Origin: Akkermansia muciniphila
GTDB lineage: Bacteria; Verrucomicrobiota; Verrucomicrobiia; Verrucomicrobiales; Akkermansiaceae
Direction: 5' to 3'
NCBI GenBank assembly: GCA_945901795.1
Contig: CAMDLP010000001.1
Coordinates: 1 to 64,000, forward strand
Length of the DNA: 64,000 nucleotides
In this document: in pieces, positions 23,914-38,043 of the stretch
How the letters are laid out: each line of letters begins with the position of its first letter
How positions within the stretch are numbered: position 1 is the first letter of the stretch
Notes under the pieces: model-generated
Seen by the model: only the letters and a program-made list of their open reading frames with translations
Databases searched by the model: none
Told to the model about the DNA's origin: nothing
Program-made: the position numbers and the translations under genes

Positions 23914-23934
23914 TTTCATGCTTCCTTAATGAAA
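23914..23934. promoter_or_regulatory. Possible operator of the RHH/PIN toxin-antitoxin operon
   Basis: TTTCAT and ATGAAA form a 6-bp inverted repeat with a 9-bp spacer, 25 bp upstream of the antitoxin start. Ribbon-helix-helix antitoxins usually bind such short dyads. The evidence is weak. Confidence 0.3.
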
Positions 23935-23958
23935 GTGCTTAGCTACCATTCCGTCACC

Positions 23959-24234
23959 ATGTCGGCACTCGTTATCAAATCGTTCCCGGATGCGCTCCAC
24001 GCCCGCTTGCGGCAAACTGCGGCAGCGCACCGGCGTTCCGTCACCCAGGAAACCATCCACTTGCTCGAAAAGGCTCTGGCGAGCGAGGATCTCGGCACTT
24101 CGGGACCGGCCCAAGGCTCCTATTGGGCGAGCCGCAAGCTGCTTTCCGAGTATGAAGCCGCCCTCAAGGCAGAGGCCTTTTCCGGTGGTGGCGATTCCAC
24201 CTTGATGGTTTCTGAAGAGCGGGACGCCCGATGA
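23959..24234 (+). CDS. FitA/Arc-type ribbon-helix-helix antitoxin
   Basis: A 91-aa protein with an N-terminal RHH fold, ALVIKSFPDALHARLRQTAA then RRSVTQETIHLLEKAL, the pattern of FitA/VapB-like antitoxins that bind DNA as dimers and neutralise PIN toxins. The C-terminal half is flexible and would contact the toxin. I chose ATG 23959 (MSALVIKSF), which begins at the beta strand; an ATG at 23929 adds ten residues. The stop overlaps the toxin start by 4 bases (ATGA), so the two are translationally coupled. Confidence 0.8.
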   Translation: MSALVIKSFPDALHARLRQTAAAHRRSVTQETIHLLEKALASEDLGTSGPAQGSYWASRKLLSEYEAALKAEAFSGGGDSTLMVSEERDAR

Positions 24235-24704
24235 CCACTGCTTATTACGACACAAGCTACCTCCTCAAACTCCAACTCATGGAAGTTGGCTCGGCTGAGG
24301 TTCTTTCCCACGCATGCACGGTGGATGTCATTTTCTGCTCCCTCCACGGTCGGGCCGAATTCGTTTCCGCCTGTCATCGCAAGGTCCGTGAGAGACAAGC
24401 CACGCTGATACAATTGCAAGCCATGCTGGCTCAAACCCACGCCGACACCGCCGCTGGCGCGCTCAAATGGCTGCCGGTCACGGAATCGCTGATCGAGCAC
24501 GTCGAACACATTTTCAGCACGGCCCCGTCAGACACCTTTCTCCGCGCGGCGGATGCCATGCACCTCGCCTGCGCTGCCGGACACGGCTTCACCGAAATCT
24601 ACTCGAATGACCGCCACTTGCTTGCCGCAGCTCCGTTGTTCGGATTGGTTGGAGTGAATCGCTTCCCGATGATCGAAAAGGCCCAGGACCAACACCTCGG
24701 TTGA
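24231..24704 (+). CDS. PIN-domain toxin (VapC-like ribonuclease)
   Basis: A 157-aa PIN-domain protein, expected to cleave RNA with bound Mg. The four acidic active-site residues are visible: Asp7 (YYDTSYLL), Glu43 (GRAEFVSA), Asp108 (RAADAMHLA) and Asp127 (SNDRHLL). It overlaps the upstream RHH antitoxin by 4 bases, the standard antitoxin-first layout. The toxin RNA target is not predictable. The C-terminal 15 residues are a short extension. Confidence 0.85.
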   Translation: MTTAYYDTSYLLKLQLMEVGSAEVLSHACTVDVIFCSLHGRAEFVSACHRKVRERQATLIQLQAMLAQTHADTAAGALKWLPVTESLIEHVEHIFSTAPSDTFLRAADAMHLACAAGHGFTEIYSNDRHLLAAAPLFGLVGVNRFPMIEKAQDQHLG

Positions 24705-26889: not shown

Positions 26890-27933
26890 TTAGAAATTTT
26901 GCAATCCATCAATCGGGCTCAGGCCGAACATCAGGTTGAAACACTGCACGGCTTGCCCGCCCGCGCCTTTTCCCAGGTTGTCCTCGGCGCTCATCAGGAT
27001 CACGCGACCGGTGCGCGGGTCGTGTTGCCAGCCGATGTCGATGAAGTTGGTGCGGGTGACGTTTTTCGTGTCCGCGCAGCCGCCGCGGCCGAGGAGACGG
27101 ACGAAATCGGAGTCGGCATACGCGCTCTCAAGCGCCGCGCCGATGGCGTCCGGCGAGACGCCGTCGCGGAGCTTGGCGGTGGTGGTGGTGACGATGCCGG
27201 AGTTCACCGGGATCAAGTGCGGGATGAAGGTGATGGTGACTTTTTCCCCGGCGGCGAGGCTGAGTTCCTGCTCGATTTCCGAAAGATGACGATGCTTCGG
27301 CACCCCGTAAGCGCGGGCGCTTTCGTTGCACTCGCAGAACAACAGGCTGAGGTCGGCCTTGCGTCCGGCACCGCTGACGCCGCTCATCGAGTTGGCGACG
27401 ACGGTGTCCGGATGGATCAAATTTTCACGCAACAGCGGCAGCAAGGGCAGCAGGATGCTCGTCGGATAACACCCCGGCGCGGCGATCAAACGCGCCGCCT
27501 CGATTTCCGCCGTGCGGATCTCCGGCAAGCCGTAAACCGCCTCCGCCAGCAAGTCCGGCGCGGGGTGCGGGTGCTCGTAAAATTCCTGGTAAACCGCCGC
27601 ATCGCGCAGGCGGAAATCTGCGCTCAGATCGATCACCTTCAGCCCGCGCTCCAGCAAGGCGCGGGCGATTTCCGCCGCCACTCCATGCGGCAGCGCGAGG
27701 AACGCCACCTGCGCACCCGTGGCCGCGATGGCGTCCGGGTCAGGCTCGATGAATGCCAGTCCCGCACCCGCCGCCTTGCGGAAACGGGGAAACACCGCTG
27801 ACAGCGATTTTCCCGCCTCTTGACGGGAAGTGGCGGCCACAAGTTCCACGCCCGGATGGACGAACAGCAAGCGGAGCAACTCCATCCCGGTGTAGCCGCT
27901 GGCTCCGACGATGGCGGTTTTGATGCGATTCAT
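26890..27933 (-). CDS. argC: N-acetyl-gamma-glutamyl-phosphate reductase
   Basis: A 347-aa NADPH-dependent reductase, the third step of arginine synthesis. The nucleotide motif IVGASGYTGMELLRLL opens the protein. The catalytic Cys is in AAPGCYPTSILLPL, and the active-site His is in PKHRHLSEIEQEL. I set the start at 27933 (MNRIKTAIVG). The frame runs open further upstream only because it passes through the tRNA-Pro gene on the opposite strand. argJ follows after 38 bp. Confidence 0.96.
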   Translation of the reverse strand: MNRIKTAIVGASGYTGMELLRLLFVHPGVELVAATSRQEAGKSLSAVFPRFRKAAGAGLAFIEPDPDAIAATGAQVAFLALPHGVAAEIARALLERGLKVIDLSADFRLRDAAVYQEFYEHPHPAPDLLAEAVYGLPEIRTAEIEAARLIAAPGCYPTSILLPLLPLLRENLIHPDTVVANSMSGVSGAGRKADLSLLFCECNESARAYGVPKHRHLSEIEQELSLAAGEKVTITFIPHLIPVNSGIVTTTTAKLRDGVSPDAIGAALESAYADSDFVRLLGRGGCADTKNVTRTNFIDIGWQHDPRTGRVILMSAEDNLGKGAGGQAVQCFNLMFGLSPIDGLQNF

Positions 27934-28009
27934 GCAGGGGGAAATGTCAGGATTTTCCGTGCTTGCCAATCCGCATTTCGCCTGTTTCCTTCGCCACCCG
28001 TTTGCGAAA

Positions 28010-28086
28010 CGGGCTGTAGCGCAGTCTGGTAGCGCACCTGCCTGGGGGGCAGGGGGTCGTGGGTTCAAATCCCGCCAGCCCGACCA
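28010..28086 (+). tRNA. tRNA-Pro (anticodon GGG)
   Basis: A complete cloverleaf. The acceptor stem CGGGCTG pairs with CAGCCCG, the discriminator is A28083 and CCA is encoded at 28084-28086. The D arm has GTAGCGCAGTCTGGTAGCGC. The anticodon stem CCTGC/GCAGG encloses the loop CTGGGGG, giving anticodon GGG. The T arm is GTGGGTTCAAATCCCGC. It is divergent from argC. Confidence 0.95.
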
Positions 28087-28440
28087 ATTCATTATCAATG
28101 AGTTGCGATCTAGGAAGGACTCGTTTATACCGTGGCTTATACCAGTCGCGGACGCCTCACTGTTCTGCGCTGGAGCTTACGGACCCTTCCTTGCATTGAC
28201 TGGTGGAAGAAAGTGGTTGGCTATTCAAGCCCCGTATTTTGGCGTTGATTTCATGCCACGAAGCATTTTCGGGTAACCCCTTGATCGTTTCCATTGCTAG
28301 TTCCTTCGTGGACATACGCAAAGATTAGGAGATGTTGAATGCAGTTTAAAGGTGGATATCGGTGGCAACGACGGCCCCCAGCAACGCCGGGTGAGGGTGG
28401 AGAGTAGCAACCCCGGCACGCTATTCCTGCTGAGGCTCCG
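28087..28440. other. Gene-free stretch after tRNA-Pro
   Basis: About 350 bp of lower-GC DNA. The plus frame just after the tRNA reads PVADASLFCAGAYGPFLALT and on to a stop at about 28276, but no start codon or family can be supported. No repeat of the tRNA 3' end that would mark an integration site is seen. Confidence 0.35.
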
Positions 28441-28476: not shown

Positions 28477-29811
28477 TCACCCCAGGCCGGGGATCTTCCA
28501 GCCTTCGCGGTAATCCCTGCGGACGAATTGATTCGCCTCGGCGAGATCGAACTTCAGTCCCGGACTGTCCCACTTGAGCGTGGCGCCCGGGAAACGCGAA
28601 GCGATGCCGCCCAACAGGATGGCCTCGGTGAGCGGGCCGGCGTAGGAGAAATCCGCCGAGGTCTTGCCGTTGCCGCGGCAGGCTTCGATGAATTGCTCCC
28701 AGTGATCCGCTCCGGTGACGCGCGGCAGCTTGTAGTCCTTGAATTTCTCCTTGGAAAACAGTTCGAGGCGGCTGACGTGCGGGAGCAGCAGCACGCCCTC
28801 GGTGCCGATGAAGATGGAACCCTGATCCGGCAGCGGCTTGCCTTCTAACAAAGCGACGATTTCCGCCGGTGGCCTGGACGCGCCATCATACCAGGTGACG
28901 TTGATGCTTTCACCCTCCGTCATGGGCGTAGGGGCGAAGGAATAGATGACTTTCCCGTCGACCGCCCAGTTCCATGCGTTCGGCACCGGGCCTTCGGAGC
29001 GGACGGAGACGGGCGCGTTGAGTTTGAGGCTCTCGAAAATCGGATCGAGGATGTGGCAGCCCATGTCGCCAAGCGTGCCGGTGCCGAAGTCGAGCCGCTT
29101 GCGCCAGTTTCCCGGATGATAGTATCCGCCGCCGATGAACGGACGATCGGGGCGGACGCCGAGCCACAGGTTCCAGTCGAAACCCTCCGGCACGGGATCG
29201 GTCTTGTCCGGCTTGGCCGTCGGGTCGCCCCATGTCTTGGACGACCATGTGTGGACGTCCTTGATCTTACCGATCGCGCCGTCCTTGATGACCTGCGCGG
29301 CCATCCGGTAATAGACCGAGGAATGGATCTGGATGCCCATTTGCGTGACGACCTTCTTTTCCTTGGCCAGCTCGGTCATGCGGCGGACTTCATGCAGGCT
29401 GTGAGCGAGCGGCTTCTGGCCATAAACGTGCTTGCCCAGTTGCATCGCGCTGACGCCCATGGGTGCGTGCATGTGATCGGGAGTGGATACGTTGACGCTG
29501 TCGATGTTGCCGGCCTCCTTGTCGAGCATCTCCCGCCAGTCCTGATAGAATCGTGCCTTGGGGAATTTCGCGCGTGCCGGGGCCGCCTGGGCGAGGTCCA
29601 CATCGCAGAACGCCACGATCTCGACGTTCTTGCAGTTCGAGATATGCGCGAGGTCGGACTCCGCCATGCCACCCAGACCGAAACAGGCGTGGCGGACCGT
29701 ATTGGAGGCTGGCTGCGCCATCAAACGGGTGGAGATGAAGGGAGCGGTGGCTGCCGTGGTGCCGAGCAGCTTGAGTAGCGAACGGCGAGAGTAGAGAGAC
29801 TGGTTTTTCAT
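28477..29811 (-). CDS. Gfo/Idh/MocA-family oxidoreductase with Tat-type leader (operon gene 5)
   Basis: A 444-aa exported oxidoreductase. The leader has YSRRSLLKLLGTTAATAPFI, a twin-arginine signal. The Rossmann part contains ACFGLGGMAESDLAH, then IVAFCDVDLAQ and VSTPDHMHAP. The catalytic lysine motif is YGQKPLAHS. The C-terminal domain has TGTLGDMGCHILDPIFESL. It is the last gene of a five-gene operon 16 bp after a double DUF1080 gene. It probably oxidises a sugar hydroxyl outside the cytoplasm as part of that pathway. It is not close enough to the other two Gfo/Idh proteins here to be a simple duplicate. Confidence 0.85.
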   Translation of the reverse strand: MKNQSLYSRRSLLKLLGTTAATAPFISTRLMAQPASNTVRHACFGLGGMAESDLAHISNCKNVEIVAFCDVDLAQAAPARAKFPKARFYQDWREMLDKEAGNIDSVNVSTPDHMHAPMGVSAMQLGKHVYGQKPLAHSLHEVRRMTELAKEKKVVTQMGIQIHSSVYYRMAAQVIKDGAIGKIKDVHTWSSKTWGDPTAKPDKTDPVPEGFDWNLWLGVRPDRPFIGGGYYHPGNWRKRLDFGTGTLGDMGCHILDPIFESLKLNAPVSVRSEGPVPNAWNWAVDGKVIYSFAPTPMTEGESINVTWYDGASRPPAEIVALLEGKPLPDQGSIFIGTEGVLLLPHVSRLELFSKEKFKDYKLPRVTGADHWEQFIEACRGNGKTSADFSYAGPLTEAILLGGIASRFPGATLKWDSPGLKFDLAEANQFVRRDYREGWKIPGLG

Positions 29812-29827
29812 GGTGTGTGGTCTTAGT

Positions 29828-31150
29828 TCAGTTGAGTGGTTTGATTGAAATGTTACGGAACATCAAGGGATCACCGTGACCGGCAAAGCCGAAATAACCG
29901 CTTTTCCGGTCCTTTCCCGGATGAGGTTTTTGGTCCAAAAATTCTGTGACCTTGCTCACATCAGCATCGAGAGTTTTGGAGCCGTTGAGTTCCACCTGAA
30001 TGGTGGAGCCTTTGACGGTGACTTCCTGATAGTTCCACTCCCCGGCGGGATATTGATATCCGGTGATGGCTCCAACCATGCCGTAAACCGATCCATGAAC
30101 CTGACGGGGATCCAGTTTGATGCCTGTGACTTTTTCCCATTGTTCGTCGAGCACCTGTAATTCAGTCATGCCATCGTAAGCCGGGTTGCCTTGGCCGGGG
30201 AAGCGAATGGCGAGGCCGTTGTTGCCGCCGGGGTGCAGTTTGAATTCAAAACGCACGATGAAGTCCGCGAACTCGTCCTGGGTGTGGAGTGTGCCGTCTT
30301 TTCCCGGCAGCCACTCGATGGCTGAGTCGGTCACGCGGCATGCATCGGTCGCGCCGGCCCAACCGGAGAAGTCCTTGCCGTTGAAGGCTGGCTTAAATCC
30401 CTCGGGACCAGTTTCGCGCAGCAGCTTGTTAGCCTCGTCGCTGCCGATTTCCCGAATGAAGACATTCTTCCAGGAAATCTCGCCGCCGTGCGTTTGAAGT
30501 TGGATCGGGCCGCGTGCCGGGACCGGTTGCTTGCGGTCGTAGTAATTTTCCATCACCGCGCCATTGACGGTCTGCTGGTCGTTCAACCACACCCAGACCC
30601 GTGAGCCGACCATGATGATGCGGAGCTTGTTCCATTCGCCGAAGGGCTTGTCCACCTTGACGAGCGGATCTTTTCCGGGCGCGCCTGCCGAGTTGTTCCA
30701 CAATCCGCCGGAGCCCTTGTCCGCGCCGATATTAAACTTGGCCGTTTCGGTGGAATCCCAGATCTGCACCTGCGGGCAGCCGCGCAGATAGATGCCGCTG
30801 TCGGCGAGTGGCACCGTCTTGTAGTCCACGAGCAACTCGAAGTTCCCGTAGGATTGATCGGTTGTGAGGAACAGGCCCTTGCCGTCATTGACGAGCACGC
30901 CGTTTTCCACGCGCCAGTGATTCTGGATATCGGCCAGGGAAGCGTCGTGCTTCGCTTTGAACTCGTCAGCTGGCAGCGCGAGATATTTGCGTGGATCCTC
31001 GGTTTCCGCGCCCCACCAGCCGCTCAAGTCGGTGCCGTTGAAGAGCGCGGTGAAACCCTGGGGAGTGGTGTTCTCTGCGGATTGAGCCGGGGTTGCGGAC
31101 ACGAGTGAGGCGGCGCATATCAACGCCAAGGCAAACGGGTGGTTTTTCAT
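29828..31150 (-). CDS. Secreted protein with two DUF1080 (3-keto-disaccharide hydrolase-type) domains (operon gene 4)
   Basis: A 440-aa protein. A signal peptide ends near PAQSAEN. The first DUF1080 (LamG-like jelly roll) domain begins GFTALFNGTDLSGWWG, and a second copy starts near residue 245, GFKPAFNGKDFSGWAGA. Both close with the expected WN...V...G blocks: GEWNKLRIIMVGSRVWVWLN and AGEWNYQEVTVKGSTIQVEL. Related domains (Pfam name 3-keto-disaccharide hydrolase) cleave 3-keto-glycosides made by Gfo/Idh/MocA enzymes. The gene sits between an MFS symporter (22 bp) and a Gfo/Idh/MocA gene (16 bp). Met 31150 starts the signal peptide. Confidence 0.85.
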   Translation of the reverse strand: MKNHPFALALICAASLVSATPAQSAENTTPQGFTALFNGTDLSGWWGAETEDPRKYLALPADEFKAKHDASLADIQNHWRVENGVLVNDGKGLFLTTDQSYGNFELLVDYKTVPLADSGIYLRGCPQVQIWDSTETAKFNIGADKGSGGLWNNSAGAPGKDPLVKVDKPFGEWNKLRIIMVGSRVWVWLNDQQTVNGAVMENYYDRKQPVPARGPIQLQTHGGEISWKNVFIREIGSDEANKLLRETGPEGFKPAFNGKDFSGWAGATDACRVTDSAIEWLPGKDGTLHTQDEFADFIVRFEFKLHPGGNNGLAIRFPGQGNPAYDGMTELQVLDEQWEKVTGIKLDPRQVHGSVYGMVGAITGYQYPAGEWNYQEVTVKGSTIQVELNGSKTLDADVSKVTEFLDQKPHPGKDRKSGYFGFAGHGDPLMFRNISIKPLN

Positions 31151-31172
31151 GATTAGGAATGGATTAGCGGGC

Positions 31173-32573
31173 TCAATGCGGCGTCTTTGTTTCACCCTCG
31201 GCAGGGTCGACATTGTCGCGGAAAAACAGCAGGAAAATCACCGCGATGACGGCTGCCATGCCTGCGGGGAAAAGCCAGTAGTGTTTCCAGTCAGTCATCG
31301 CCTTGGTGACGAGTTCCGGGTTGACGCCCTCGGGGTATCCCTTGCCGAACATGCCGGCCATGGATTCGAGGAACGTGGGCGCGGGCTGGCTGCCTGCGGT
31401 GGCCTTGATGTTTTCCATCAGCGCGGCGTGGTTCACGGGGGCGGCCCCGTAAGCGCCGAGGGTGTTAGGAAGCGGGATGGTGGTGAATGGCAGGTTGCCG
31501 CCGAACGCCATGCGGAAGCCGAAGAACATCCCCAGGCCCTGGGTGAGGAACACCAGCAGGCTCTGCGCCTGGCCGCGGACTTCGGCGGGCGCCTTCTTGT
31601 CGGTGTAGATGAAGCCGGTGACGAAGAAGAAATCGTAACAGATGCCGTGAAGCGCCACGCCCATCAGAAGCATCCACGTCACTTGTTCGGGAGCGCCGAA
31701 GGAGAACAGGACGTAGCGCAGCACCCAGCAGCCCATGCCGACGAGCAACATCAGTTTCACGCCGAGTCTGCGGAAGAAGAACGGGATGAGCAGCATGAAG
31801 ATGATCTCGGACATCTGGCCGAGGGTCATCGTCGATGCGGCTTGTTTGAAACCGGCGGCACCGAGATAGGCGGAGGTTTGCCCGTAGTAGTAGCCGAGCG
31901 GGATGCAGATCAGCGTCGAGCAGATGGCGAACACCAGAAACGACGGGTTTTTCAGCAGTTTGAGCGCGTCCAACATGAACAGCGAACCGATATCGATGGG
32001 CTTGCCTTTGGCGGGCGGCGGCGTGTGGGGAAGCGTGAAGCTATACACGCCCAGCGCGATGCTGGAGGCGGCGGCGATCCAAAAAATGTTCAACGACGCG
32101 GACCATCCGGCGATGCCGAGCGCGAGGCCGGCGACGATCCAGCCGATCGTGCCCCAGACGCGGGCTTTCGGGAACAATTCCTGCGGCAGGTGCGTGAAGG
32201 TGATCGTGTTGCCGAGGCCGAGGGTAGGCATGTAGCAGAGCATGTAGGCGATCATCAACCAGACGATCTGCCCGCCTTTTTCCGCGCCTTGCGGTGCGAT
32301 GATGGCGATGGCGCACATGATCCCGCCGCCTATCAGCATCAGCACACCCATCACGCGCTCGGAGGAGAACAGGCGGTCGGCGATGAGGCCGAGGAAGAGC
32401 GGGGCGAAGATGGCGGCGATCGGCGCGCTTTCGTAAGCACCGCCGATAGATCCGGACAAGCCGTTGTTACCCATCGCGAGGGCGAGCGTGGCGAACCACG
32501 ACCCCCATGCGAAGAACTGGAGGAACATCATCACGGAAAGCCGGATGAGAATGGAGCGCGGGGATGGAGTCAT
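31173..32573 (-). CDS. MFS sugar/nucleoside:H+ symporter-like permease (operon gene 3)
   Basis: A 466-aa protein with about 12 membrane segments. The N-terminus RLSVMMFLQFFAWGSWFATL and the following LGLIADRLFSSERVMGV (cytoplasmic loop motif) match the NupG/XapB nucleoside-symporter branch of the MFS. In Verrucomicrobia and Planctomycetes this branch is often found in sugar-catabolic operons and need not carry nucleosides. It is 13 bp after a Gfo/Idh/MocA gene and 22 bp before the DUF1080 gene, so it probably imports the product or substrate of the pathway. Confidence 0.85.
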   Translation of the reverse strand: MTPSPRSILIRLSVMMFLQFFAWGSWFATLALAMGNNGLSGSIGGAYESAPIAAIFAPLFLGLIADRLFSSERVMGVLMLIGGGIMCAIAIIAPQGAEKGGQIVWLMIAYMLCYMPTLGLGNTITFTHLPQELFPKARVWGTIGWIVAGLALGIAGWSASLNIFWIAAASSIALGVYSFTLPHTPPPAKGKPIDIGSLFMLDALKLLKNPSFLVFAICSTLICIPLGYYYGQTSAYLGAAGFKQAASTMTLGQMSEIIFMLLIPFFFRRLGVKLMLLVGMGCWVLRYVLFSFGAPEQVTWMLLMGVALHGICYDFFFVTGFIYTDKKAPAEVRGQAQSLLVFLTQGLGMFFGFRMAFGGNLPFTTIPLPNTLGAYGAAPVNHAALMENIKATAGSQPAPTFLESMAGMFGKGYPEGVNPELVTKAMTDWKHYWLFPAGMAAVIAVIFLLFFRDNVDPAEGETKTPH

Positions 32574-32586
32574 GGTTGTTTTTGGT

Positions 32587-33624
32587 TCAGAGTTTCACAG
32601 ATGCGCCGCGGCGGATGGATTGTTCCTCGGCTTCGCAAATTTCAAGAGCCGTCACGCCGTCGAGGGCGGTGACAACGGCCGGAGCCTGGCGTTTCGCCAC
32701 GCAGTCGATGATGTAATCGATTTCCTTCGAGTAGCCATCGCCGTCGCCGGTTTCCACCACGCGGGGTTCCTTGCCGGTTTCCGAGACGATCAGGGCGTTA
32801 GCACCGCGGGCCAGATCGAAGTCGATCGTCGCGTTTTCGCAGAGCAGCGTGTAGGACATGTTGAACCCTTGGTTCAGCAACCAGCTTCCTTCGGCGTAAA
32901 CGTTAGGACCTCCCGGATAGTTGTATTGCGTGACGACATGGTTGATGGCTCCGCTTGCGGCGAGCACGCCGGTGGAAAAAACACCCGCGGGGCGGCCGAA
33001 GAGGTGGTTCACGAAATCGGTGTCGTGGATGTGGAGGTCGAACAACGCGCCGCCCAGATCCTGGCCGCCGGAGTAGGTGCCTTGCTGACTCCATCCGGGC
33101 ATCGCGGAATCGCGGCGGAATCTAGCGGTAAGCACTTTGCCGCAGGTTTCTTCCGCCACCGCTTGCTTGAGCCAGCTCCAGCCGGGCCAGAAGCGCATGC
33201 ACATGGCGGGCATCAGGATGCCGGGCGATTTCGCCGCGATTGCTAGAATTTCACGCGCCTCCGCCGAGGTGCGGGCGAGCGGTTTCTCGCAGATGACATG
33301 TTTGCCCGCGTTCAGCGCGGCGATGACCTGCGCGGCGTGCAGCGGCGTCGGCGTGCAAATATCCACCAGCTCCACGTCCGCGTCGGCGAGGAGTTCCTCG
33401 GTCGTGCGGTAAACCTTCACGTCCGGGCCGAGGTCGATGTCGTCAGATTTCGTGATGTTGCCGGAGACTCCGGCGAGCACGCCGTTGACCGGCGCGCGCA
33501 TGGCGTCGCAGACGGCGACCACGCGGGCTTGTGGGTTGGCGAGATAGGCGCGGAGGTGGGTCACGCCCATGAAGCCGAGGCCGACGACGGCCACGTTCAC
33601 GGGTTTTTCGGTGGCGGCGGACAT
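32587..33624 (-). CDS. Cytoplasmic Gfo/Idh/MocA-family oxidoreductase (operon gene 2)
   Basis: A 345-aa inositol-dehydrogenase-like enzyme without an export signal. Rossmann motif VAVVGLGFMGVTHLRAYLAN, then VVAVCDAMRAPV, the catalytic lysine motif CEKPLARTS, and the metal/substrate His region ALFDLHIHDTDFVNHLFG. I chose Met 33624 (MSAATEKPVNVAV). It follows the TIM-barrel gene by 4 bp. Being cytoplasmic, it may reduce or oxidise the imported keto-sugar, unlike the exported relative at the end of the operon. Confidence 0.85.
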   Translation of the reverse strand: MSAATEKPVNVAVVGLGFMGVTHLRAYLANPQARVVAVCDAMRAPVNGVLAGVSGNITKSDDIDLGPDVKVYRTTEELLADADVELVDICTPTPLHAAQVIAALNAGKHVICEKPLARTSAEAREILAIAAKSPGILMPAMCMRFWPGWSWLKQAVAEETCGKVLTARFRRDSAMPGWSQQGTYSGGQDLGGALFDLHIHDTDFVNHLFGRPAGVFSTGVLAASGAINHVVTQYNYPGGPNVYAEGSWLLNQGFNMSYTLLCENATIDFDLARGANALIVSETGKEPRVVETGDGDGYSKEIDYIIDCVAKRQAPAVVTALDGVTALEICEAEEQSIRRGASVKL

Positions 33625-33628
33625 GTTG

Positions 33629-34465
33629 TTAGCGGATGGATTGGAGGACGACTTCCCGCGCGGTGCGGATGTCGGCGACGCGCTGGTCACCGGCTTCGCG
33701 CTCGATCACGATGTCGCCGGTGAAATGGATTTCCGCGAGTGTTGCGAAAAACGCGTGCCAGTCAACCTGCCCGTCGCCGACGGCGACCTCCTCGCCCCAG
33801 GTGCCGGGAACGGCGCTTGCGTTGGCGTCCTTGACGTGCACCTGCCGGATCCACGGCGCGAGCACGCGCACGGCCTCGATGGGGTCGCCCTTGCCGTAGA
33901 GCAGCATGTTGGCGGGGTCGAAATTGACGACCACGTTCGACTGCCGGAGCTCGCCTAACAAAGTCGCCAGTCCGGCCGCGGTTTCCTGGCCGGTTTCCAA
34001 ACCGACGCTGATGTCTGCGGCGGCGAAAATTTCGGCCACGGTCTTGAGGCGGCCGACCATTTTCGCGAAATCCGGGTCCGCCGGATCGTGCGGCACGAAG
34101 CCGGCGTGGAAGGTGACGAGCTTCAAGCCGAGCGCGGTGGCGATTTCCACGGTGGCGCGGATGTTTTCGAGATTCCGGTCCCAAGTCTCATCGGGCGCGA
34201 TCCCGCCGGTCTCGCGGATCGTGTCCAGCGTCGAGTAGTCCTCGCCGACGCAGCCGAACATGCCGGAGATGATTTGGATGCCGGCCTGTTTGAGAATCGC
34301 TTCCGTCCCGCCCCAGACGGCGGGTTCGTCGCGCAGCGGGTCGAGCGCGAGCTGGACGCGGTAAACGCCTGTTTCCTGGAGTTTTCCGGCGAGTTCCTGC
34401 GGGGTGGCCGCTTGCAGCGACCATGAGCAGACGGCGATTCGTTGGGGCAGGGTGAGGGAATTCAT
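33629..34465 (-). CDS. Sugar phosphate isomerase/epimerase-like TIM barrel (operon gene 1)
   Basis: A 278-aa protein of the xylose-isomerase-like AP endonuclease 2 family. It has IAVCSWSLQAATPQELAGKL at the start, KLVTFHAGFVPHDPADPDFA, and the metal-binding acidic/His residues in ISVGLETGQETA, VVNFDPANMLLYGKGDP, IRQVHVKDAN and GDIVIEREAGD. Such enzymes isomerise or epimerise keto-sugars with a divalent metal. It is first in the operon; the 140 bp upstream hold no gene and presumably the promoter. A keto-sugar epimerase fits the predicted 3-keto pathway. Confidence 0.85.
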   Translation of the reverse strand: MNSLTLPQRIAVCSWSLQAATPQELAGKLQETGVYRVQLALDPLRDEPAVWGGTEAILKQAGIQIISGMFGCVGEDYSTLDTIRETGGIAPDETWDRNLENIRATVEIATALGLKLVTFHAGFVPHDPADPDFAKMVGRLKTVAEIFAAADISVGLETGQETAAGLATLLGELRQSNVVVNFDPANMLLYGKGDPIEAVRVLAPWIRQVHVKDANASAVPGTWGEEVAVGDGQVDWHAFFATLAEIHFTGDIVIEREAGDQRVADIRTAREVVLQSIR

Positions 34466-34607: not shown

Positions 34608-35564
34608 TCAGGCAGGGGAAGGGATGCCGTTGCGGAAAGGGTCGGAAGGATTGAAGAGGTAGGAGCTTTCCCCGTTCACCCAGGCGCGGCCGGTGACAAC
34701 GGGGACGACCGGGCCGTCGGTTAGGGCCTCCACGCGGCCGCTGAAGACGGTGTCGAGGATGCCGGCCTGTTTCCAGATCTCGCCGGGGCTGAGTTTTCCG
34801 TCGGCGTGAAGGCAGGCGAGTTTGGCGCTGACGCCGGTGCCGCAGGGCGAGCGGTCGTAGGCTTTGCCGGGGCAGAGCACGAAGTTGCGGCTGTCGGCAA
34901 GCGCGGGGTCCCCAGGCGGGCCGAAGACCTCGACATGGTCGATCTCCGCGCCGTCGTCGCCGGTGACACCTTGTTTTTCGAGCTCTTGGCGGACGAGCCG
35001 GGTGAAATCCATCAGCGCTTCAAGATTTCTGAATTCCACGCGCGGGCCCTGGTTGTCGATGAGGAAAAACCAGTTTCCGCCCCAGGCGATGTCGCCGCGC
35101 ACGATGCCATGGCCGGGGACCTCGACCGCCACACCGGCTTGCTTGCGGTAGCTCGGGACATTCGCCACCTCGACGGAGCCATCCTCGTGCAAAGTGGCCA
35201 CCACCACACCGACGGGGGTGTCGATCCGGTGGGTGCCGGTGCTAATTTTCCCGATGTGGGCGAGCGTCACGACGAGTCCGATGGTGCCGTGGATGCACAT
35301 GTTGAGGGTCGAGTGGTTGTTGAAAAAAATCACGCCGCAGACGCAGTCGGGTTCGGCGGGCTCGCAGATCACGGCACCGACCATCGCGTCGTGGCCGCGG
35401 GGTTCGTTGCAGACGGCGCTGCGCAGCCAGTCGTGATTCTCACGCAGCCGTTTGGATTTTTCCGCCATGGTCCCGCAGCCCAGATCGGGCGCGCCGGAGA
35501 TGACGACCCGGGTAGGTTCACCTTCGGTGTGGGAATCGATAATTTGGAGTGGGGCCTGGTTCAT
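34608..35564 (-). CDS. Proline racemase-family enzyme, probably 4-hydroxyproline epimerase
   Basis: A 318-aa cofactor-independent epimerase. Both catalytic cysteines are present, in NMCIHGTIGL and DRSPCGTGVSAK, which rules out the trans-3-hydroxyproline dehydratase branch, where the second Cys is Thr. The opening IIDSHTEGEPTRVVISG is typical of the family. The first-Cys motif is MCIHG where MCGHG is more usual. With the D-amino-acid dehydrogenase next to it (88 bp upstream), the likely role is conversion of trans-4-hydroxy-L-proline to cis-4-hydroxy-D-proline. Proline or another substrate remains possible. Confidence 0.8.
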   Translation of the reverse strand: MNQAPLQIIDSHTEGEPTRVVISGAPDLGCGTMAEKSKRLRENHDWLRSAVCNEPRGHDAMVGAVICEPAEPDCVCGVIFFNNHSTLNMCIHGTIGLVVTLAHIGKISTGTHRIDTPVGVVVATLHEDGSVEVANVPSYRKQAGVAVEVPGHGIVRGDIAWGGNWFFLIDNQGPRVEFRNLEALMDFTRLVRQELEKQGVTGDDGAEIDHVEVFGPPGDPALADSRNFVLCPGKAYDRSPCGTGVSAKLACLHADGKLSPGEIWKQAGILDTVFSGRVEALTDGPVVPVVTGRAWVNGESSYLFNPSDPFRNGIPSPA

Positions 35565-35602
35565 GATTGCGTTGTTTATATATAGTCACGGTCTTGGCGA
35601 AT

Positions 35603-35632
35603 GTTATAGCGGGAGCTTCCAAACCCGTGCAA
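35603..35632 (-). promoter_or_regulatory. Possible sigma-70-type promoter for the epimerase gene
   Basis: Read on the minus strand, TTGCAC and TATAAC are separated by 18 bp and end 38 bp before the epimerase start. It lies in the 88-bp gap after the dehydrogenase gene. It may allow separate expression; co-transcription is not excluded. Confidence 0.3.
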
Positions 35633-35652
35633 GACCCGCGAGCTGACGTTTC

Positions 35653-36912
35653 TTAATGAAACCGACCTGGCGACATCGCGTCGATCGGGCGGAACGGCGG
35701 GTCTCCGGCAAGCAGATCGGCGATCAGCCGACCACTAACCGGGCCGAGGCTCAGGCCCATCATGGCGTGGCCGCCGGCGGCGAGCAGGTTCGGCAGGCCG
35801 GCGACCTGGCCGAGATACGGGACGCCGTCCGGCGAGACGGGACGCAGCCCGGCCCATGGCTCGACGGCGTCGAAATCGCGCTCCGAGAACTTCGGAAAAT
35901 AGCTGCTCACGGATTTCACGATGCCGCGGACCCGCGCCGGATTGACCGAGAGGTCAAGCCCGCCGACCTCCATGGTGCCTCCGAAGCGCAGGCTGCCGTC
36001 CATCGGCGTGATCGCGACCTTGGCCTCGGCGAAGATCGAGCAGAGCTCCGGCATTTCCGGCGGCGAGGGCAGCGTTAGAGAATACCCTTTCCCCGCCTGC
36101 AGCGGCAGTTTGATGTCCACGGATTTTAACAGGTCCGCGCTCCACGAGCCGCCGGCGATGACGAATTTCCCGCCCTCGAAGCGTTGTCCGCCGCCAGTCA
36201 TGGCGGTCACCGCGCCGCCGCGGGTTTCGATCGAGTCGATCGTCACGCCGCTTTCGATCAGGCCGCCCGCGACGATTACCCGACGCCGGATAGAAGCCAT
36301 GAACCGGCCGGGTTCCAGGTGGCAGTCCTGCGGGAAATAGACCGCTCCGGCGACGTTCATAGTGATCGCCGGGTCGAGCCGCGCGGTGGCGGCGGCGTCC
36401 AGAACCTCGGCCTGCAAGCCGATCTCATGCGCGTCCCTTGCGACACGGGCTTCCTCGTCCAGACCCTTTTGAGTGTTGCAGAGCATCAGCAGGCCGCGCC
36501 TCACCAGGCCGAAGTCCTCCTCCTCCGCCAGCTCGGCGAACAAGCGCCGGCTCTCCAGATTGAGGTCGCGCAGCAGCTCGCGTGACGCGGCGACGTGGCG
36601 CTCCGTGGAGTGCTGATAGAACAGCCAGCCCCAGTGCATCAGATCGAGGTTCAACCGGGGGCGGATATAGAAAGGGCTTTCCGGATCAAACATCCAGCGC
36701 AGGCCTTTGGAAATCATCCCCGGCGCGGCGAGCGGCGTGAAATGGCTGGGAACGATCATGCCCGCGTTTCCCATCGAACAATTGTCCGCCCCCGCCGCTT
36801 CGCGCTCGATCACGGTGACCGCGAACCCGCGCTTCAACGCATAATACGCCGAGCACAGCCCGATGACTCCGCCGCCCACGATGACCACCTGGTTCCTTGT
36901 CATGTGACCCAT
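35653..36912 (-). CDS. FAD-dependent D-amino-acid dehydrogenase (DadA-like)
   Basis: A 419-aa flavoprotein of the DAO/DadA family. It opens with VVIVGGGVIGLCSAYYALKR (FAD-binding) and then DNCSMGNAGMIVPSHFTPLA, the active-site entry loop of DadA-like enzymes. The C-terminal FAD contacts are PWAGLRPVSPDGVPYLGQ and GHAMMGLSLGPVSGRLIADL. Paired with an epimerase, it would oxidise cis-4-hydroxy-D-proline to the pyrroline carboxylate in hydroxyproline catabolism. Start at 36912 (MGHM) or 36903 (MTRNQ). The in-frame DNA further upstream is a remnant of another gene and not part of this one. Confidence 0.85.
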   Translation of the reverse strand: MGHMTRNQVVIVGGGVIGLCSAYYALKRGFAVTVIEREAAGADNCSMGNAGMIVPSHFTPLAAPGMISKGLRWMFDPESPFYIRPRLNLDLMHWGWLFYQHSTERHVAASRELLRDLNLESRRLFAELAEEEDFGLVRRGLLMLCNTQKGLDEEARVARDAHEIGLQAEVLDAAATARLDPAITMNVAGAVYFPQDCHLEPGRFMASIRRRVIVAGGLIESGVTIDSIETRGGAVTAMTGGGQRFEGGKFVIAGGSWSADLLKSVDIKLPLQAGKGYSLTLPSPPEMPELCSIFAEAKVAITPMDGSLRFGGTMEVGGLDLSVNPARVRGIVKSVSSYFPKFSERDFDAVEPWAGLRPVSPDGVPYLGQVAGLPNLLAAGGHAMMGLSLGPVSGRLIADLLAGDPPFRPIDAMSPGRFH

Positions 36913-37351: not shown

Positions 37352-37657
37352 ATGATCACGCGCACCTCACCGCCCAAGACCCTCTCCGTGAGCGAATTCA
37401 AGACCCATTGCACCGACGCGCTGCGTGAGGTCGAAACCTCAGGAATCCCTCTCCAAATCACCCGCCACGGCAGGCCGGTGGCGGTGGTCTGCAAACCCGG
37501 TGACGATTCACTCACACAACCCAAGGCAAAACCCCTACGCGATTGGATGGGCTCGCTCGCCGGAACTATCGAGTTCGCAGCGGACTACGATCCCGCCGAA
37601 CCCACATTCTCCCCGCAAGACTGGGAGGATCACCCGGCCAACCTCACGGACCCATGA
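37352..37657 (+). CDS. Phd/YefM-type antitoxin
   Basis: A 101-aa antitoxin. The N-terminal fold is TLSVSEFKTHCTDALREVET then PLQITRHGRPVAVVCKP, the Phd/YefM dimer and DNA-binding domain. The rest is a flexible, acidic, Trp-containing tail (DWMGSLAGTIEFAADYDPAE) that would thread onto the toxin. The stop overlaps the PIN toxin start by 4 bases (ATGA). Such antitoxins autorepress their operon. Confidence 0.85.
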   Translation: MITRTSPPKTLSVSEFKTHCTDALREVETSGIPLQITRHGRPVAVVCKPGDDSLTQPKAKPLRDWMGSLAGTIEFAADYDPAEPTFSPQDWEDHPANLTDP

Positions 37658-38043
37658 ATTACCTGCTCGATACCAATGCCTGGCTCCAGCTCGGTCAGGC
37701 ACCCACCCAGATCCCGCTTCGGGTCCGTAAAATCCTCTTGGCAGAGAACACCATCGCCCTCTCTCCCATCAGCATCATCGAGATCGCCCAAAAACAAAGT
37801 AACGGTCGGCTCACCCTCAGCGCGCCCCTCGAAGAATGGGTCTCCAAGGCACTCTTCGATGGCTTGAAACTCCTCCCCCTCACCCCGGAAATCGCCTGCG
37901 ACGCCTACCGCATTCCTGATTTCCACGGAGATCCCGCCGATCGCATCATCGCCGCCACCGCCCGCGCCCATCAACTCACCCTCGTCACCTGTGATCGGAA
38001 GCTCATCGCCTCGCCTCATGTGAAAACCCTCTCCACCCGATGA
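37654..38043 (+). CDS. PIN-domain toxin (VapC-like)
   Basis: A 129-aa PIN ribonuclease. Acidic site residues: Asp6 (LLDTNAWL), Glu43 (SIIEIAQK), Asp96 (GDPADRIIAATA) and Asp114 (LVTCDRKL). The HGDPADRIIA block is typical of Phd-paired VapC toxins. It overlaps its Phd-type antitoxin by 4 bases. The start was set by that overlap. Confidence 0.88.
   Translation: MNYLLDTNAWLQLGQAPTQIPLRVRKILLAENTIALSPISIIEIAQKQSNGRLTLSAPLEEWVSKALFDGLKLLPLTPEIACDAYRIPDFHGDPADRIIAATARAHQLTLVTCDRKLIASPHVKTLSTR

Follow-up and report, generated by a model that had tools for sequence, protein, structure and literature searches.

A stretch of 64,000 nucleotides from Akkermansia muciniphila (contig CAMDLP010000001.1, positions 1 to 64,000; referred to below as the window) harbours five consecutive genes on the minus strand, here called A to E, which run from 34465 to 28477 and are separated by gaps of 4, 13, 22 and 16 bp. 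They encode a xylose-isomerase-like TIM barrel, a leaderless Gfo/Idh/MocA oxidoreductase, a symporter of the major facilitator superfamily (MFS), a secreted protein with two DUF1080 domains and an exported Gfo/Idh/MocA enzyme. The initial annotation had described this arrangement and these families, and both the coordinates and Pfam agree with it: the best Pfam matches of all five genes exceed the curated cut-offs (Table 1). Strong family matches together with close homologues in related genomes rule out chance or mis-annotation as the source of the set. The best reading of the operon is a pathway acting on 3-keto-glycosides, an interpretation that had been proposed at the outset and is partly supported by the analysis described here.

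The search for sigma-70 promoters returned one site where 1.7 were expected, which is nothing above chance, and terminator-like sites on both strands numbered 11 against an expectation of 6.9 (standard deviation 2.3). The case for co-transcription therefore comes from spacing and conservation only.

Table 1. Genes of the operon and sequence features within them
Feature	Positions	Strand	Details
A, xylose-isomerase-like TIM barrel, 278 residues	33629..34465	minus	PF01261, 106 bits; without leader
B, Gfo/Idh/MocA oxidoreductase, leaderless, 345 residues	32587..33624	minus	PF01408, 90 bits
C, MFS proton symporter, PF03825 (Nuc_H_symport), 466 residues	31173..32573	minus	330.9 bits (cut-off 25.9)
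D, secreted, two PF06439 (3keto-disac_hyd, DUF1080) domains, 440 residues	29828..31150	minus	260.6 bits, two stretches (cut-off 26.8)
D, N-half (PF06439), motif PQVQIWD	30452..31057	minus	Gln127 (codon 30770-30772) replaces Glu
D, C-half (PF06439), motif TELQVLD	29840..30400	minus	Glu330 (codon 30161-30163), same as BT2157
E, Tat-type exported Gfo/Idh/MocA, 444 residues	28477..29811	minus	PF01408, 69 bits; relative of BT_2158_fam, PDB 8tdf/8tdh
Twin-arginine motif SRRSLLK of E, residues 8-14	29770..29790	minus	pattern match

The exported oxidoreductase and the tandem DUF1080 protein

Residues 44–425 of E align with PDB entries 8tdf and 8tdh (2e-60), both of which are titled merely as dehydrogenases, and its QKP and GDMGCH stretches coincide with EKP and GDMACH in these structures. 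The NCBIfam model BT_2158_fam, 'glycoside 3-dehydrogenase', matches E with 300.1 bits (2.4e-89, profile positions 2–444 of 487). The strict pattern of the twin-arginine translocation (Tat) pathway is present in 23 of 29 starts of E homologues and the other six show an Arg-Arg pair by eye; this survey comprised 27 members of the E family minus L050 and L098 (a diverged member and a fragment among them), plus four added sequences. The genome encodes TatC (214.5 bits), and E, possessing a twin-arginine leader alongside a translocase, is predicted to be exported. D carries a hydrophobic leader. This supports the claim that a DUF1080 protein and a Gfo/Idh/MocA enzyme resembling glycoside 3-dehydrogenases are neighbours and that each has an export signal. 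No leader is seen on either A or B, and the division between an exported and a leaderless oxidoreductase is present as first described. The NCBIfam profile of BT_2158 spans the leader region of E, whereas that of BT_2159 starts at the Rossmann fold, and these match positions suggest that the split is probably not new. The family to which E belongs is dependent on pyridine nucleotides. Export by Tat would suit an enzyme that folds around nicotinamide adenine dinucleotide, NAD(H), before transit, a behaviour for which Zymomonas GFOR provides a precedent.

Scored separately against PF06439, the two halves of D reach 143.7 and 124 bits. Its AlphaFold model displays two domains with a mean predicted local distance difference test score of 87.4, and Foldseek retrieves with this model the tandem protein BT3469 (4jqt) first, followed by single DUF1080 structures that include BT2157 entries titled eliminase/hydratase or 3-keto-2-hydroxy-glucal hydratase. 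Structure prediction for both halves had been suggested from the start. Over 191 aligned residues, VIA-align superposes the predicted C-half on 8tda ('3-Keto-2-hydroxy-glucal-hydratase') and 8rr2/9fbe ('3-keto-glycoside eliminase/hydratase') with Z scores of 21.8–22.3 and a root-mean-square deviation (rmsd) of 2.6–2.7, so that the C-half shares the BT2157 fold, while the N-half was barely probed by the same structure list. By sequence, the N-half matches 4jqt (4.1e-7) and AL2 (5.1e-6) weakly.

The two halves are not equivalent: in 19 of 19 aligned D homologues the N-half bears Gln127 at the place equivalent to Glu330 of the C-half. TELQVLD in the C-half resembles PEYQVLD of BT2157 and Alistipes AL2, and the ExQxLD motif of BT2157, present there, is absent from the N-half (PQVQIWD). 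Operon versions with a single DUF1080 domain (L120, L074) retain the C-half. On the sequences at hand, the motif glutamate may be catalytic; we infer that catalysis probably falls to the C-half, with the N-half serving in binding or as a helper. BT3469 is built in a similar fashion, with a first half of the Gln type (GYQFEID) and a second of the Glu type (CEFQILD), both PF06439-like; it shares 27% identity with D over 344 aligned residues (rmsd 11.2) and is described only as a putative glycosyl hydrolase.

Contrary to the initial supposition, the tandem arrangement itself is not rare: apart from 4jqt, the window's own genome holds 17 PF06439 matches, and four of its open reading frames (ORFs), D included, carry two. 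Twelve of these 17 matches (all except L007, L008, L011, L016 and L017) were used to construct a DUF1080 domain profile. A survey of 29 tandem proteins, four of which were unreadable, revealed one Glu-type and one non-Glu half in all 25 that could be read in both halves; 19 of these 25 constitute the lineage of D. Extended to all tandems, this pairing breaks down on a set of 6 from two distant genomes, where three Gln/Glu, two Gln/Gln and one Glu/Glu combinations occur; they came from 20 regions chosen for long frames, the other 14 of which gave a single domain. The pairing rule is kept, as a pattern read from sequence, for the D lineage only.

Four genomes of the same family and another genus (G115, G131, G134, G137) have no PF06439 match at 1e-12, against 16 in the window's genome. 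A different tandem, with a first half of the Glu type and a second of the Lys type, lies in opposite orientation beside E in G057 (L079:4976-6271); a tandem of this type is also found in the window's genome (G000:C11).

Proteins A to C and the recurrence of the gene set

Residues E157, D183, H210 and E255 of A are invariant in 19 of 19 homologues and occupy the usual metal positions of the TIM-barrel superfamily. A signature, E[TS]GQE, is common to all 104 rows of the A alignment. The structure nearest to the predicted fold is 3tva (Z 34.4), titled as a domain protein only. Further neighbours, in the rows shown, have Z scores of 24.1–27.0 and comprise isomerases, epimerases, AtHYD (25.0) and glucose isomerase; sugar 3-epimerases and the 3-keto-glucoside 4-epimerase YcjR are among the fold neighbours, and the scores cannot separate epimerase, isomerase and hydratase. 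In the region of the signature AtHYD reads ELHPG, with a small insertion. According to the available part of PMC10628242, AtOGE, PuCGE and AtHYD carry a histidine in the region just after the beta-5 metal ligand; in AtOGE it is catalytic, and the H134A variant is inactive. As A has no histidine there, an eliminase of the OGE/CGE type is improbable, and an AtHYD-type hydratase is not favoured either. The nearest NCBIfam model of B is inositol 2-dehydrogenase (112 bits, cut-off 355), followed by UDP-N-acetylglucosamine 3-dehydrogenase and levoglucosan dehydrogenase, all with scores far below cut-off. C scores 115 bits below the cut-off of the nucleoside-permease model.

Each protein was searched in 99 genomes, the window's own included; the genome collection comprises 73 members of the window's genus. 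A and B find matches in the same 23 genomes, adjacent and with a shared orientation in every one of them. D occupies 25 near-full-length places in 24 genomes, a few on short contigs. A search with a profile of A yielded 80 public loci which, with two from the genus, make up 82 fetched loci, and B stands beside A in 58 of these. That A and B form an obligatory pair is true of the 23 near relatives and fails more widely: 24 of the 82 loci show no B next to A, the five Hydrogenedentota loci among them, although some lie at contig ends. Among 93 loci with a called A gene, the commonest nearby families after B are C-type symporters (12 loci) and E-type oxidoreductases (10 loci). Because some loci yielded few or no called genes (for example L051, L064, L081, L101 and L179), linkage was counted from BLAST searches of ORFs or from tblastn.

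In a tree of A with 104 rows (100 distinct; L160, a duplicate of L118, was omitted), the operon kind forms a single clade of eight rows with support of 100/97: the window, G012, G057, G104, G048, G024, L120 and G015. A symporter matching C, 30–97% identical to it, is linked in all seven readable loci of the clade, the G048 contig ending in B; E of the same kind is linked in five and D of the same kind in three (window, G015, L120). The initial annotation had proposed a neighbourhood search for the five-gene set in Verrucomicrobiota. Families A to E are indeed found together, differently ordered, in further members of that phylum (L074, L120, L123). A fixed set did not hold up, with A adjoining D in 2 of the 25 places (the own genome and G015). 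L120, from Verrucomicrobia subdivision 3, has A-B-C-D-E with only the C-half of D, and L123 has D-E-A-B-C with the halves of D reversed. G051 shows an AraC-like regulator followed by D (C-half only), E, B, A and C, with an N-half gene on another contig. Three loci that include two Planctomycetota (L165, L168, L179) present A-B, an opposed DUF1080 gene, C and a distant E. In 6 of 104 A loci, members of all five families fall within 6 kb of A, and their order varies; in one of the six, L079, the DUF1080 gene is the different, opposed one. The linkage is genuine and recurs, but in a modular unit, of whose genes D is the least constant; A-B is a separate pair that also occurs alone.

A and B, with C, might by themselves make up a complete cytoplasmic route for a sugar, or a compound resembling inositol, that is imported, possibly an epimerization through a 3-keto intermediate as in the YcjR/YcjS pathway, with D and E co-transcribed for another step or substrate. 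The constant adjacency of the pair in its 23 genomes, mostly without the other three genes, would fit such a route, as would YcjR and the sugar 3-epimerases among the fold neighbours of A and the inositol 2-dehydrogenase model of B, far below cut-off as it is. However, the well-supported operon clade of A is linked in all seven readable loci to a PF03825-like symporter and in five to E of the same kind, L074 and L123 again link A to E in different gene orders, and the loci without B beside A indicate that the pair itself is not obligatory. A self-contained route is judged unlikely, and the 3-keto-glycoside pathway remains the preferred reading of the five genes.

No consistent signal as to the substrate emerges from the neighbours. 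In G104 (L118:12339-13984), genes for a PIG-L deacetylase and a glucosamine-6-P-isomerase-like protein come after A-B-C-E; the two domains are fused in L162:3100-5019, part of a cluster present near A in 6 loci, of which one was scanned. G015 (L050:3190-4614) has a GH29 alpha-L-fucosidase gene between a distant E-like gene and A, and in L123 (8074-9366) a gene with a partial GH29 match comes after C.

In the window, a gap of 142 bp upstream of A separates the operon from a 4-hydroxyproline-epimerase-like and a D-amino-acid-dehydrogenase-like gene (34608-36912), both below NCBIfam cut-offs; they look like a separate unit, perhaps one for hydroxyproline. Judged from translations by eye, genes downstream of the operon resemble arginine biosynthesis, and two small overlapping gene pairs (37352-38043 and 23929-24704) appear toxin-antitoxin-like. 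A tRNA-Pro(ggg) on the plus strand (28010-28086) overlaps, on the other strand, the 5' portion of the minus-strand ORF 26890-28098 as read in its long form; that gene thus probably starts further in.

A candidate route for oxidative glycoside cleavage

With about even odds, the operon represents a Verrucomicrobial form of a known way to cleave glycosides, by oxidation, elimination, hydration and reduction. What has been observed or computed is the identity of the genes, their export signals, the folds predicted for D and A, and how far the genes are conserved and linked. E would fold in the cytoplasm with NAD(H) bound, leave by Tat and oxidize the C3 hydroxyl of a glycoside. The fold of its C-half marks D as the candidate for elimination and hydration, and the Gln-type N-half may aid binding or do part of the work. 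E would then return the hydride to the 3-keto-sugar, making the cycle redox-neutral, or some keto-sugar may escape. C may import the sugar or keto-sugar, and the cytoplasmic A and B would convert leftover 3-keto-sugar or imported 3-keto-glycoside to a common hexose, B acting at C3 and A isomerizing or epimerizing.

Among the closest known systems is the BT2156-BT2160 cluster of Bacteroides thetaiotaomicron, which likewise holds another Gfo enzyme along with a TIM barrel. Like it, the operon combines an exported Gfo/Idh/MocA enzyme of the 3-dehydrogenase kind with a DUF1080 eliminase/hydratase fold, and A is likewise a TIM barrel, its orthology to BT2156 being putative; unlike in that cluster, E and B score below the equivalog cut-offs, DUF1080 is doubled and an MFS symporter lies inside the operon. 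The cluster has reportedly been described by Nasseri et al. (Nature 2024) as an alternative broad-specificity glycan pathway. The available part of PMC12385236 discusses BT2156-2159 for glucosinolates. According to the accessible text of PMC9007349, the lac cluster of Caulobacter includes lacABC and the DUF1080 gene CCNA_01705; the paper links DUF1080 genetically to the use of 3-keto-lactose and calls BT2157 a 3-ketotrehalose hydrolase. Periplasmic oxidation followed by proposed DUF1080 cleavage, with a transporter, epimerases and a reductase nearby, is a trait shared with the operon, although LacABC is membrane-bound and oxidation here would be carried out by a Tat-exported Gfo/Idh/MocA enzyme. 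Operons of Gfo and sugar-isomerase-like enzymes for oxidation, elimination, hydration and reduction have been published (PMC10628242, PMC7676230, as far as their excerpts go): Agrobacterium AtOGE/AtHYD and Bacillus smithii lgdA-B1-B2-C likewise place both kinds in one operon, but there the sugar-isomerase-like enzymes eliminate and hydrate, whereas here, with A lacking the histidine, DUF1080 would do so. The literature matches listed, with subscription papers mostly outside their coverage, contain no publication on this operon in Verrucomicrobiota. The operon would cleave sugar compounds after first oxidizing them, in place of a plain addition of water; this chemistry is known from other bacteria, and the gene set is a new arrangement of it.

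Several observations weigh against the 3-keto-glycoside pathway. The 300 bits of E lie below the BT_2158_fam equivalog cut-off of 750, and B reaches 40.2 bits with BT_2159_fam, below its equivalog cut-off of 650. E adjoins D in 4 of 25 places (own genome, G050, G055, G048) and is absent next door in the other 21; G012, G057 and G104 show the order A-B-C-E with C–E gaps of 26, 21 and 17 bp and no D between; and the families seen around A in at least 3 of the 93 loci do not include DUF1080. The N-half exists as a stand-alone gene in G051:C2 and several other genomes, and so is not a mere decoration of the C-half. In the parts of the respective sources available, deletion of BT2157 or BT2158 caused no growth defect on raffinose-family sugars (PMC11501099), ten Pedobacter DUF1080 genes had no lactose phenotype (PMC9007349) and a Thermogutta DUF1080 protein is reported as an endo-xanthanase (PMC10881899).

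The xanthanase and the absence of D from three close operons, along with a lectin-like jelly roll resembling CBM66 (Z 16.2), would also be expected if D were not the cleaver at all, binding carbohydrate or hydrolysing polysaccharide outside, with E alone performing NAD-dependent hydrolysis as in GH109. This is very unlikely: the nearest characterized DUF1080 folds are titled 3-keto-glycoside eliminase/hydratases, the best models of E are 3-dehydrogenases, and GH109 is a weak match (6t2b, 4.3e-5).

A further alternative concerns the traffic of electrons. E might oxidize outside and pass electrons to a periplasmic acceptor, D cleave there, C import the 3-keto-sugar and B, with A, reduce it inside. 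Such a scheme agrees with an operon that combines D and E, both with export signals, with a symporter and a Gfo enzyme lacking a leader, and the A-B-C linkage recurs. Yet, given the cofactor dependence of E, bound NADH would need re-oxidation outside; it cannot leave the periplasm, so outside oxidation and inside reduction would be unbalanced, an imbalance that favours re-reduction outside by E itself. LacABC possesses electron-carrier cofactors; a comparable electron-carrier partner is not encoded in the operon. In addition, A-B stands without C, D and E in most related genomes that have it. The scheme thus appears unlikely, even with the precedent of the Caulobacter lac cluster, where a transporter, epimerases and a reductase are paired with a periplasmic 3-dehydrogenase and DUF1080 (PMC9007349, in the part available). 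A redox-neutral cycle by E is the simplest solution, offered here as a proposal.

The preferred pathway could also be composite. Two independent modules may have been joined: an exported E, with or without D, for redox-neutral breakage of glycosides outside, and a cytoplasmic A-B pair, found in Verrucomicrobiota and Planctomycetota, that epimerizes 3-keto-sugars, with elimination and hydration by D shared between the Gln-type and Glu-type halves. This elaborate version is considered quite unlikely.

Several of the genomes searched contain many DUF1080 and Gfo/Idh/MocA genes without an assigned role. A compact operon with DUF1080, Gfo and a transporter is a unit in which the oxidative cleavage of glycosides by Verrucomicrobiota can be tested. 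The Gln/Glu asymmetry between the halves of D is a simple mutational handle on which residue does the chemistry, and a role for A-B would put a name to a family that many environmental genomes carry.

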